64,000 bases of DNA from Kaistia dalseonensis (GTDB lineage Bacteria; Pseudomonadota; Alphaproteobacteria; Rhizobiales; Kaistiaceae): contig NZ_JAUSVO010000006.1 in assembly GCF_030814715.1 (NCBI RefSeq), forward strand, positions 310,001-374,000, in the 5' to 3' direction. Position 1 is the stretch's first letter. Every line of letters begins with the position of its first letter. Under the pieces are notes generated by a model, which made no database searches, was not told the DNA's origin, and saw nothing but the letters and a program-made list of their open reading frames with translations. This document shows positions 16,493-28,200 of the stretch, in pieces. The translations under genes were made by a program, and so were the position numbers.

Positions 16493-17659
16493 ATGGCTGA
16501 AATCGTCTTCGATCGAGTCACCAAGCGCTATGACGACGGGCAACTGGCCGTCAACGCGCTCAATCTGACGATCGAGGATGGCGAATTCCTCGTGCTCGTC
16601 GGACCCTCCGGCTGCGGCAAGTCGACCGCGCTCAGGATGATCGCCGGGCTCGAGGAAATCTCCGATGGCGAGCTCAAGATCGACGGCACGGTTGCCAACG
16701 ATCTTGCCCCGCGCGATCGCAACATTGCCATGGTGTTCCAGTCCTATGCGCTCTATCCGCATCTGACCGTCGCCGAGAACATCGCCTTCGGCCTCAAGGT
16801 TCGGGGCGCCGACCAGGCCGAGATCGACCGGAAGGTCGCCGAGACGGCGAAGCTGCTCGAACTCACCGACTATCTGAAGCGCAAGCCCGGCAAGCTCTCG
16901 GGCGGCCAGCGCCAGCGTGTCGCCATGGGCCGCGCCTTGGTGCGCTCCCCCAAGGCGTACCTGATGGACGAGCCGCTCTCCAATCTCGATGCGCGCCTGC
17001 GCGGCCAGATGCGCGCCGAGATCGCCCGCCTGCAGAAGATGACGGGCGTCACGACCGTCTATGTCACGCACGACCAGGTCGAGGCGATGACCATGGGCGA
17101 CCGCGTCGCCGTCATGAACAAGGGCGTCCTGCAGCAACTCGCCGGTCCGCGCACGCTCTATGACGCGCCGGCCAATCTCTTCGTCGCCGGCTTCATCGGC
17201 TCGCCGCCCATGAACCTGCTGGCCGGCCAGATCGTCGGCGAAGGCGGCAACCTGACGCTGCAGCTTGGCCAGCTGACCATCCCGCTCGACCAGGCCGCGC
17301 TTACCGCGCGCCCGGCGATTACCCGCAATATCGGCAAACCCATCATCGCCGGCGTCCGTCCCGAGGCGTTCCATTGCGTCCTCGGCGAGGCGACGCCACC
17401 CGGGACGCTGCCCGGCACGGTCGCCTTCGTCGAGGATCTGGGCGCCAGCCTGCTGGTGCATGTCGATCTCGACGGCGCCTCCGTGGTGGCCGCGGACGAT
17501 CCGAGCGGCGGCGACGAGATGGTCGCCGCACGCACCCGCCTTCGTGCCGTGCTGGACGGCACGTTGCATTTCAAGGCCGGCGAGCGCATCCGCCTCACGG
17601 TCGATCCCGCGCGGATCCATCTCTTCGATGCCGCCACCGAGCAGGCGATCACCAGCTAG
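16493..17659 (+). CDS. sugar-type ABC transporter ATPase (UgpC/MsmX family)
   Basis: The 388-residue protein has Walker [10 protein letters not shown] (residues 37-45), Q-loop [12 protein letters not shown], signature [15 protein letters not shown], Walker [13 protein letters not shown] and the H-loop VTHDQVEAM, followed by a C-terminal MOBP/TOBE regulatory domain ([21 protein letters not shown]). This layout is that of the shared ATPase of carbohydrate importers such as UgpC, MalK and MsmX. The nearest permeases without an ATPase are at 20803-22628, so it is likely their energiser; it could also serve the amino-sugar operon just upstream. Start ATG 16493. Confidence 0.9.
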
Positions 17660-17746
17660 AACTTTTTCCGAGCGAAGTGGAAACCGGTTCGCGCGAAGGA
17701 AGCGCGACACATCAAATAGCTAGATCTGACGACTGGACGTTTTGAC

Positions 17747-18418
17747 ATGACGCTTTCCTGGCCGGTTTCCGGCTCGCTCGACCTCGACCGCACGGCGCTG
17801 GTCGTCATCGACATGCAGACCGATTTCTGCGGCCCAGGCGGCTGGATCGATCGTCTCGGGCAGAGTTTCGACAACACGCGCAAGCCCATCGGCCCGATCG
17901 CCGATCTCCTCGCCGCTGCCCGCGCTGCCGGCATGACAATCATTCACACCCGCGAAGGCCATCGGCCTGACCTGACCGACCTGAACCCGGTCAAGCGTTG
18001 GCGCAGCCGCGTTCATGGCGTCGGCATTGGCGATGAAAGCAACCAGGGCCGGGCGCTGACGCGCGGCGATCCCGGCCACGACATCATCCCCGAGCTCTAT
18101 CCCGAGACCGGGGAGATCGTCATCGACAAGCCCGGCAAGAGTTCGTTCCACGCCACCGAGTTCGACCAGGTGCTGCGAGCGCGCGGCATCGAAGCACTGA
18201 TCGTCTGCGGTGTCACCTCGGATTGCTGCGTGCAATCGACGATCCGGGACGGTGCCGATCTCGGCTATGACTGCGTGCTGGTCGTCGACGGCACGGCGGC
18301 CGTCGAGAGCGCCAATCATCAGGGCATGGTCGACGTGCTCTCGGCCTATGGCGGACGCTGGGGCGCCGTCATGCCGTCTTCCAGCCTGGTCGCCATGATC
18401 GAGGGGGCCGGACAATGA
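17747..18418 (+). CDS. isochorismatase-family amidohydrolase, biuret-hydrolase-like
   Basis: The 223-residue protein belongs to the cysteine hydrolases of the isochorismatase fold. The inferred catalytic triad is Asp22 (VVIDMQTDFCG), Lys128 (IDKPGK) and Cys161 (GVTSDCCVQST); the spacing of the three residues agrees with that published for biuret hydrolase BiuH. The stretches HTREGHRPDLTDLNPVKRWRS and LTRGDPGHDIIPELYP also resemble BiuH, which converts biuret to allophanate and ammonia. Ureidoacrylate hydrolase (RutB) is a more distant alternative. It overlaps the second isochorismatase gene by four bases. Confidence 0.8.
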   Translation: MTLSWPVSGSLDLDRTALVVIDMQTDFCGPGGWIDRLGQSFDNTRKPIGPIADLLAAARAAGMTIIHTREGHRPDLTDLNPVKRWRSRVHGVGIGDESNQGRALTRGDPGHDIIPELYPETGEIVIDKPGKSSFHATEFDQVLRARGIEALIVCGVTSDCCVQSTIRDGADLGYDCVLVVDGTAAVESANHQGMVDVLSAYGGRWGAVMPSSSLVAMIEGAGQ

Positions 18419-26992: not shown

Positions 26993-27003
26993 CAGGAACA
27001 TTC

Positions 27004-28200
27004 ATGCAGCCTGATCTCGTCATTGCCGGCGCGCGGTCGCCGGAGGGAGCGCTCGTCGACGTTGTCGTCACGGGCGAGACCATCGCCGCCATTCTTCCCG
27101 CCGGCTCGTCGCCTGAGGGTGGCATCCGCATCGACGGCACGAACAAGCTCGTCGCGCCGTCCTTCGTCGAGGGACATATCCATCTCGACAAGACCCTGCT
27201 CGGCCTGCCCTTCATCCCGCATATTCCCGGCAATACGGTCGCGCTCCGCATTGCGGCCGAAAAGGAACTGCGCCGCACGGTCTCGCTTTCGGTCGAAGAG
27301 CGCGGCGGCCGGCTGATCGAGCAGATCGCGGCCTTCGGCACGGGCAGCATCCGCAGCCATGTCGATATTGACAGCGAGGTCGGCCTCAAGGGGCTGCATG
27401 CGGAACTGGCGCTGAAAGAGCGCTATGCCGATCTGGTCGATATCCAGATCGTCGCCTTCCCGCAGAGCGGCGTGATGCGCGATCCCGGCGTCGCCGATCT
27501 CCTCGATGCCGCCATGCTGGAGGGCGCCGATCTCGTCGGCGGGCTCGACCCGGCCGGCATCGATGATGACGTGACTGGCCATCTCGACGCGATCTTCGCT
27601 GTCGCCGAAAAGCACGGCGTCGGCCTCGACATCCATCTGCATGATCCGGGTCCGCTCGGCGCCTTCGAACTGCGCCAGATCGCGGCGCGCACGATCGCGC
27701 TCGGCCTCGAAGGCCGGGTCGCGGTCAGCCATGCCTTCGCGCTCGGCCAGATCGACGATTTCGAGTTCGGACGCACGGCCGAGGCGCTTGCGACGGCGCG
27801 GGTCGCCATCATGACCAACGGTCCCGGCCCGGTCTCGATGCCGCCCGTCAAGCGGCTGGAGGCGGCGGGCGTCACGGTCTTCGCCGGCTCGGACAATATC
27901 CGCGATGCCTGGTCGCCCTATGGCAATGGCGATCCGCTGCAGCGGGCGATGATCATCGGCTACCGGCAGGAGTTCAACGCCGACGAGGATCTCGCCCATG
28001 CCTTTGCGATGGTGACGGCCCTGCCGGCTGCGGTGATCGGCCTTTCCGGCTATGGTCTGGCTGCCGGCAATCGCGCCGATCTCATCCTCATCCCGGCCCT
28101 TTCCATCCCGGAAGCGGTGTCGGGCGTGCCGGGCCGGCGGACCGTGATCAAGCGCGGCAAGGTGGTCGCGACGGACGGTGTTCTGAGCCCCCGCGTATAG
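27004..28200 (+). CDS. cytosine-deaminase-like amidohydrolase
   Basis: The 398-residue TIM-barrel amidohydrolase has the metal motif FVEGHIHLDKTLLGL (His58, His60), SHVDIDSEVGLKGLHA, DIHLHDPGPLG, VSHAFALG and the Asp in FAGSDNIRDAWSPYGNGD, all typical of the cytosine deaminase/AtzC branch. Members remove an amino group or hydrolyse an amide on a nitrogen heterocycle. Start ATG 27004 lies 9 bp after the upstream stop. Together with the amidase and the biuret-hydrolase-like protein it suggests breakdown of a nitrogen ring or ureide. Confidence 0.85.
   Translation: MQPDLVIAGARSPEGALVDVVVTGETIAAILPAGSSPEGGIRIDGTNKLVAPSFVEGHIHLDKTLLGLPFIPHIPGNTVALRIAAEKELRRTVSLSVEERGGRLIEQIAAFGTGSIRSHVDIDSEVGLKGLHAELALKERYADLVDIQIVAFPQSGVMRDPGVADLLDAAMLEGADLVGGLDPAGIDDDVTGHLDAIFAVAEKHGVGLDIHLHDPGPLGAFELRQIAARTIALGLEGRVAVSHAFALGQIDDFEFGRTAEALATARVAIMTNGPGPVSMPPVKRLEAAGVTVFAGSDNIRDAWSPYGNGDPLQRAMIIGYRQEFNADEDLAHAFAMVTALPAAVIGLSGYGLAAGNRADLILIPALSIPEAVSGVPGRRTVIKRGKVVATDGVLSPRV

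Follow-up and report, generated by a model that had tools for sequence, protein, structure and literature searches.

The question raised by a gene cluster of Kaistia dalseonensis is which compound a bacterium would take up with a sugar-type importer and then degrade with a putative oxygenase, amide-cleaving hydrolases and polyol enzymes. The cluster lies in a stretch of 64,000 nucleotides (the window; contig NZ_JAUSVO010000006.1 of assembly GCF_030814715.1, positions 310,001 to 374,000 of the forward strand), and coordinates are given from its first letter. An original prediction, made from these letters, had assigned ten open reading frames at 16493-28200 to the catabolism of a nitrogen-rich compound. 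All ten are found at the coordinates and in the families given there, as judged by Pfam and NCBIfam, and the right-hand limit of 28200 proved too short, since conserved SDR, DeoR, BtpA and FGGY genes follow at 30863-35077; these polyol-type genes, and a ribitol-bound relative of the binding protein, had been overlooked. Judged from gene content, the importer, questin-oxidase-like protein, amidohydrolase, FAD protein, SDR, DeoR regulator and FGGY kinase are a linked set over many genomes. We favour, with slightly less than even confidence, the reading that they may form one catabolic system, by which a five-carbon polyol resembling ribitol and the nitrogen-rich fused ring to which it is joined would both be degraded; our best guess at the substrate is a ribityl fused pyrimidine, for instance a flavin or a lumazine. 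The genes on which this reading turns are the following.

16493..17659, plus strand: UgpC/MalK-type ATP-binding cassette (ABC) importer ATPase (ugpC; NCBIfam PRK11650, 446.2 against a cut-off of 432).
20803..21681, minus strand: MalG-type ABC permease (PF00528).
21678..22736, minus strand: UgpA/MalF-type ABC permease with an uncertain start codon (PF00528).
22845..24125, minus strand: family-1 solute-binding protein (sbp), 68% identical to 5IAI, whose structure was solved with ribitol.
24497..25939, plus strand: FAD/NAD(P)-binding oxidoreductase or monooxygenase (fad; PF13738, 40.9 against a cut-off of 30).
25949..26992, plus strand: questin-oxidase-like protein (qox; Questin_oxidase PF14027, 76.1 against a gathering score of 27).
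27004..28200, plus strand: amidohydrolase nearest to N-isopropylammelide (AtzC-type) hydrolases (amh; 6nbo, 2.3e-87).
30863..31642, minus strand: SDR dehydrogenase, proposed polyol dehydrogenase (sdr; 225 of 259 residues identical to 3ak4).
31847..32650, plus strand: DeoR/GlpR-family regulator (deoR; best NCBIfam match NF041397 (GlpR), 178.4, below its cut-off of 300).
32711..33511, plus strand: BtpA/SgcQ family protein (btpA; TIGR00259, 248 against a cut-off of 153.4).
33581..35077, plus strand: FGGY-family carbohydrate kinase, for which a ketopentose or polyol is the proposed substrate (fggy; 3ifr, 1.5e-212).

Linkage was assessed in 43 loci picked by homology, 35 of them through the binding protein, five through the FAD protein, one through BtpA (L103) and two, both plasmid regions, through an apparently inactive paralogue of the biuret hydrolase BiuH that is described below (L108, L109). 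Identity thresholds were set per gene, and several loci end at contig ends. Different clusters (L110, L111), sugar-only, BtpA-only or fragmentary loci (L095-L102, L104-L106) and L053-L055 and L107 were left out. Because the loci were chosen by homology, the count of a seed gene is no evidence in itself, while the counts of the other genes are. The binding protein and each permease are present in 42 of the 43 loci, qox in 40, ugpC in 39, amh in 36, fad, sdr and deoR in 35 each, fggy in 32 and btpA in 23; a second amidohydrolase (amh2) occurs in 21 and a gamma-glutamyltransferase-family gene (ggt) in 17, and passenger genes are less frequent (mfs 8, cutC 8, nagA 7, sis 6). The ugpC count covers homologues of at least 44% identity, and its co-occurrence is weak on its own because such ATPases are common. 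Translated searches of the 35 binding-protein loci found that the four genes beyond 28200 travel with the cluster.

The hosts comprise several families of the order to which K. dalseonensis belongs, together with Pseudooceanicola of the Rhodobacterales (L040), and in nine loci, six of them named Kaistia (Hyphomicrobiales, Kaistiaceae), the binding protein is 83-88% identical. Thirty distinct gene-order strings were recorded, part of the difference being due to cuts at contig ends. As a control, homologues of the FAD protein of at least 50% identity (L001-L009, window included) were all flanked by another cluster gene, whereas those read at 44-45% (L010-L012) had only generic matches of 28-31% or none beside them. 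A phylum-wide search found the questin-like protein in four of 398 genomes at an E-value of 1e-15 or better, that of K. dalseonensis included; in one of these (G187) the matches sit on two contigs, one copy having probably been split by assembly, and in the two others (29-30% identity) the loci hold no cluster gene save for one generic ATPase match of 31%. Since the cluster genes travel together through distant genomes in many orders, their linkage is more than chance. The co-occurrence search proposed with the original prediction has thereby been run: the counts refute the possibility that its units do not co-occur, and they support the claim that these act together, as a single linked system for the catabolism of a sugar-like compound rich in nitrogen.

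By close homology and by fold, the binding protein belongs with 5IAI and is a candidate ribitol-binding protein; 20 of 36 binding-protein sequences were used for comparison. The genes to the right of 28200 resemble, in sequence, a polyol module, and ribitol and other polyol operons are typically built from a family-1 ABC importer, an SDR and an FGGY kinase. The kinase itself scores 313.6 with the NCBIfam XylB model, below the cut-off of 380.25, and so falls outside the xylulokinases as these are defined there. The likeness to a polyol operon also brings in an alternative, which we consider unlikely, in which two adjoining modules are used separately and have no common substrate: ribitol catabolism (importer, SDR, kinase and DeoR) and nitrogen salvage (qox, FAD protein, amidohydrolase, BiuH and AtzF). 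Polyol genes stand without ring enzymes in seven of the 12 loci fetched for that comparison, and the BiuH genes are optional. In such sugar-only loci, however, the binding protein is another one (27-30% identity), and the ring enzymes adjoin the binding-protein clade of the window in most of the 43 loci and in many gene orders.

For the ring half of the substrate, the questin-like protein is the most widely shared of the candidate enzymes. A model built from 28 sequences (of 35 proteins at hand, from 34 loci and the window) reached a pLDDT of 91.7, and in Foldseek it matched 8z4r, 7y3w and 8yxs, which are the hydroquinone dioxygenase PaD, the questin oxidase BTG13 and a fungal non-heme-iron dioxygenase. 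Six PDB fold matches had an E-value of 1e-7 or better with TMq of 0.74-0.78; the next stood at 0.12, and no other fold was found under 0.001. Five histidines (H33, H126, H241, H247 and H315) are invariant in the 28 sequences. Profile comparison with PDB sequences gave one weak match, to PaD (1.7e-05), in which H33 is aligned with a PaD histidine in a stretch with an i-Evalue of 0.0017, and H241 and H315 are aligned only in a stretch with an i-Evalue of 99. Because of the fold matches, the protein is read as a predicted non-heme-iron dioxygenase and not as a flavin-dependent Baeyer-Villiger enzyme.

Baeyer-Villiger monooxygenases carry the fingerprint FxGxxxHxxx[WY]. Neither this pattern nor a relaxed form of it was found in any of 28 FAD proteins, all 28 of which have a GxGxxG motif; a second, degenerate one is visible by eye in the window protein. 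Baeyer-Villiger oxidation is therefore rejected for the questin-like protein on its dioxygenase fold and is unsupported for the FAD protein. Elsewhere in the genome (L062, C2:80001-96000) a paralogue of the FAD protein (42%) has a CobW-like GTPase as its neighbour; farther along lies a group of HpaB-like, PuuE-like, SsnA-like and amidase genes, recognised by eye. The amidohydrolase had been called cytosine-deaminase-like, and N-isopropylammelide hydrolases are nearer to it: 6nbo matches at 2.3e-87 and cytosine deaminases at 1.1e-33 or weaker, the score with PRK05985 (517.6) exceeds its cut-off of 408, and those with PRK07572 (199, cut-off 438) and PRK07583 (142.2, cut-off 403) stay below the cytosine deaminase family cut-offs. 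The motif HxH[DE]xG is present in 29 of 30 amidohydrolases.

These results bear on the pathway originally drawn for the cluster, in which Baeyer-Villiger ring oxidation, cytosine-type deamination and biuret hydrolysis would act on an N-heterocycle or N-glycoside. The family names match and the genes are linked, but the fold, the absent fingerprint and the AtzC-type affinity count against it, as does a changed specificity residue in the BiuH-like protein, leaving this sequence of steps quite improbable. What stands is the linked catabolism of a nitrogen-rich, sugar-like compound, which co-occurrence supports; the Baeyer-Villiger and cytosine-deaminase steps do not, and the route and the substrate are still matters that we infer.

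The BiuH-like protein belongs to a group of three genes encoded downstream of the ATPase.

17747..18418, plus strand: BiuH-like cysteine hydrolase of the isochorismatase fold (biuH; PF00857, 3.4e-43).
18415..19032, plus strand: BiuH paralogue, apparently inactive, with the nucleophile cysteine replaced by alanine (biuP; Pfam and residue alignment).
19047..20462, plus strand: allophanate-hydrolase-like (AtzF-like) amidase of 471 amino acids (atzF; PRK08186, 519.6 against a cut-off of 487).

In BiuH, the catalytic residues are Asp36, Lys142 and Cys175, and Gln215 binds biuret (PMC5806882). The window protein keeps the catalytic residues as D22, K128 and C161 and has Tyr201 in place of the biuret-binding glutamine, a position that reads Y in five, H in three, F in three, D in one and Q in one of 13 rows; its score with the NCBIfam BiuH model NF050097 (276.2 bits) lies below the curated cut-off of 370. 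The paralogue had been proposed to be non-catalytic, and in sequence it looks so: the nucleophile position is alanine or leucine in 11 of 11 rows (ten loci and the window; L040 and L042 were not counted here, the same protein having been used as BiuH), so that the presumably inactive partner is conserved. The amidase matches the amidase domain of AtzF and is shorter than the full-length enzyme, scoring 485.7 with TIGR02713 against an equivalog cut-off of 511.05 and covering this profile to position 423 of 563; it lacks the C-terminal part, and five of ten relatives (L033, L034, L037, L038 and L046) are 609-612 amino acids long. Across the 43 loci, several of which are cut by contig ends, biuH occurs in 16, the paralogue in 17 (L040 and L042 doubtful) and atzF in 14. 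As the trio is optional, it probably does not define the chemistry of the cluster.

A locus for the degradation of cyanurate, biuret or s-triazines was considered for these BiuH-like, AtzF-like and AtzC-like members, and is rejected as very unlikely. The genome contains a single match to the AtzD/TrzD family (PF09663), outside the window at C4:565948-567015 and between two other BiuH-like genes, which supports the original prediction in setting the cluster apart from the cyanurate pathway; in addition, Gln215 is changed and most of the 43 loci are without BiuH and AtzF matches. Given this separate AtzD-family gene with its two BiuH-like neighbours at C4:565-569 kb, ordinary use of cyanurate or biuret may not need the window genes. 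The surrounding region (L053, C4:556001-576000), which holds the AtzD/TrzD-family gene and the two BiuH-like genes, was also seen by eye to include an amidase, an AtzH/HpxZ-like open reading frame and a BMP-type ABC importer.

A different set of partners appears in eleven Rhizobium-type loci (one from an unclassified Rhizobiales isolate), where an 8-oxoguanine-deaminase-like gene, the second amidohydrolase and the gamma-glutamyltransferase-family gene stand in the same order; the deaminase-like gene is also carried by L058, which brings its count to 12 of 43 (oxoGda). In L021, its product scores 620.3 with NCBIfam PRK08203 (cut-off 532), and one plasmid copy of the Rhizobium-type cluster has been annotated gene by gene, an 8-oxoguanine deaminase being named there. 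For the gamma-glutamyltransferase-family protein of L021, the scores are 201 and 162.5 bits with the two chains of 5hft, the best single chains being 2nlz (238.4) and 2i3o (226.8). We take 5hft to be the oxamate amidohydrolase HpxW; since this identity is presumed, a role of the oxamate type is no more than a lead. The deaminase-like partner suggests a substrate rich in nitrogen and akin to a purine or pteridine.

The same partner makes room for an oxidised purine nucleoside as substrate, such as 8-oxoguanosine and the hydantoin, oxalurate or triazine products of its breakdown, from which ribose would be freed and the nitrogen-rich remainder deaminated and hydrolysed via ureide, oxamate and allophanate. 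BiuH and AtzF would suit the ureide ends, the gamma-glutamyltransferase-family protein recurs as counted above, and elsewhere in the genome of K. dalseonensis four further genes show 64-69% identity to the 8-oxoguanine-deaminase-like protein of Rhizobium. Although it is the main and a serious rival of the ribityl reading, we judge this route improbable: the relative of the binding protein holds an open-chain polyol and not a nucleoside, the deaminase-like gene is absent from the Kaistia clusters, and free ribose would not need a pair of SDR and FGGY enzymes. The four deaminase-like genes lie at C5:422633-425635, C2:71574-72872 and C2:279788-281092, and one of them is near two open reading frames that by eye resemble nucleoside hydrolases (L061).

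Co-regulation of the polyol genes with the importer and the ring enzymes was examined in the two divergent promoter regions.

24126..24496: sbp-fad divergent promoter region, with a weak DeoR-type site in the window.
24169..24188, minus strand: 20-base element GCGATTTTGTTTGATGTATA 5' of the binding-protein gene.
31643..31846: sdr-deoR divergent promoter with tandem half-sites TGTTCGGTTATGTTCGAA, a putative DeoR-type operator found by motif search.

The gap between sdr and deoR contains tandem TGTTYG half-sites spaced ten bases, and 25 of 30 loci matched a seed, written after inspection of these same regions, at 14 or more of 16 positions; in the window all 16 agree. With a matrix from 19 distinct sites, 24 of the 30 loci had a match in the gap between sbp and fad at p under 0.05, as judged by mononucleotide shuffles; 11 of the 24 are closely similar Rhizobium-type loci. 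A related pattern, derived from the same two gaps, had three matches in L021, all in these gaps, against 0.02 expected, and two in L041 against 0.07. When the two gaps of the window were compared with each other, their best shared 16-base match (14 of 16) was equalled by one of ten shuffles, and because the window pattern was taken from it, its two matches (0.08 expected) are partly circular. Of 38 promoter regions, 16 contain the element at 24169-24188 without a mismatch (the window, L013-L015, L018 and the eleven Rhizobium-type loci); there is one mismatch in eight more, and at least four in 12. Among Kaistia-type loci it is exact in those with the BiuH trio (L013-L015, L018) and has five or six mismatches in those without (L017, L019, L020, L047).

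Returning to the ribityl fused pyrimidine, a route can be proposed in which the binding protein would hold the polyol end and the importer would take the molecule in. The FAD enzyme may then hydroxylate or otherwise activate the ring, and the questin-oxidase-like protein, as a non-heme-iron dioxygenase, would break a ring C-C bond, after which the AtzC-like amidohydrolase would cut a C-N bond of amidine or N-alkylamine type. In strains that have it, the BiuH-like hydrolase could cut an N-substituted biuret or ureide, possibly together with the inactive paralogue as partner subunit, and the resulting allophanate would go to the AtzF-like amidase; in some relatives, the 8-oxoguanine-deaminase-like and gamma-glutamyltransferase-family enzymes may release more nitrogen. 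Regulated by DeoR, the SDR would oxidise the freed polyol and the FGGY kinase would phosphorylate it, so that it enters the pool of pentose phosphates. In our judgement flavins and lumazines would fit these parts, as read from sequence, best. The fully specified version is doubtful: an undescribed route of Hyphomicrobiales for ribityl fused pyrimidines (flavins, lumazines or riboflavin-pathway intermediates) with a ribitol-recognising importer, a bacterial iron dioxygenase of the questin-oxidase fold, a BiuH-type enzyme and inactive partner releasing allophanate, and ribitol use through SDR and FGGY.

Several observations weigh against the ribityl reading. The ribitol in the crystal of 5IAI may be a screening ligand, and the predicted iron site of the questin-like protein draws on the fold and a weak sequence alignment. 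The 8-oxoguanine-deaminase-like partner also fits purine-like substrates. The FAD gene, BtpA and the BiuH trio are not universal, and the Kaistia loci L019 and L020 lack all of them. In the sbp-fad gap of the window, the match to the operator is not significant (p 0.07), and none was found in that gap in the Kaistia loci L017, L019, L020 and L047 or in L036. Furthermore, none of the P450, xanthine-oxidase-type or Rieske genes of the published lumichrome (Lum) pathway (PMC12746152) was found among the 15 cluster proteins scanned with profiles (10 plus 5), a scan that did not extend to the remaining proteins of the window and genome. With the Lum oxygenases not among these genes, complete flavin breakdown is left unexplained. 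A search for an RNA link to flavins with Rfam at the gathering threshold over 15500-36500 gave zero matches.

Gene spacing, as computed from the coordinates, suggests transcription units: ugpC; biuH, the paralogue and the amidase, with an overlap of 4 bases and a gap of 14; and sbp with the permeases, divergent from fad, qox and amh, which are separated by 9 and 11 bases. The ugpC gene starts 122 bases past cutC, and the ATPase could also serve the amino-sugar genes upstream. These, at 9622-16370, were recognised by eye as amino-sugar recycling genes (murQ-, nagK-, gntR-, SIS-, nagA-, ROK- and cutC-like). On the other side, 41476-50943 resembles, again by eye, a myo-inositol catabolism cluster (iolG-, RpiR- and iolC/D/E/B-like), and 51928-53906 has a dip in GC content (0.541 in 52001-54000) and open reading frames without the usual codon bias, possibly a foreign stretch.

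The protein families are known and the linked unit is apparently undescribed; a term search of the open-access literature found no description of the cluster. The cluster would suggest roles in bacterial catabolism for questin-oxidase-like proteins of PF14027, for BtpA/SgcQ proteins and for inactive BiuH paralogues, and would offer a natural context for a known reductase together with a short list of substrates. This reductase, 3ak4, is an NADH-dependent quinuclidinone reductase, a name that records one reaction of that relative, whereas the genes around the window SDR suggest for it a substrate of polyol type. Given so close a relative at 30863-31642, 3ak4 may naturally belong to a cluster of this polyol/N-heterocycle kind. 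Should the substrate prove to be a flavin or lumazine, the cluster would represent a second strategy for the catabolism of vitamin B2-type compounds, and this in bacteria associated with plants; a link between lumichrome and signalling in the rhizosphere has been described (PMC12746152).

Among known systems, ribitol and other polyol operons share with the cluster the set of importer, SDR, kinase and DeoR, and the window binding protein has a ribitol-bound relative, but here ring-cleaving and amide-hydrolysing enzymes belong to the linked unit. The biuret/cyanurate pathway (AtzD, BiuH or AtzE, AtzF) also passes from a BiuH-like hydrolase to an allophanate-hydrolase-like amidase, but in the window there is no AtzD match, the biuret-binding residue is replaced, and an oxygenase, an importer and polyol genes are added; unlike that pathway, most of the loci do without the trio. 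A plasmid that carries a ring-opening amidohydrolase, a cysteine hydrolase and atzF together has no oxygenase, importer or polyol partners named in the stretch shown. With BTG13 and PaD (7y3w, 8z4r), the questin-like protein shares the predicted fold (TMq 0.76-0.78) and one conserved histidine aligned with some support, and differs in length (347 residues as opposed to 440-473), in sequence (14-16% identity) and in its bacterial catabolic context. A parallel in reaction types is the Lum pathway of Nocardioides simplex, in which the pyrimidine ring is hydrolysed, the urea part is removed by the 24 kDa LumI and an imidamide is then hydrolysed (PMC12746152). The likeness is drawn from these reaction types; the P450, xanthine-oxidase-type and Rieske dioxygenase genes were not found among the cluster genes scanned, and in the cluster the cleavage of the ring would be left to a protein of the questin-oxidase fold.

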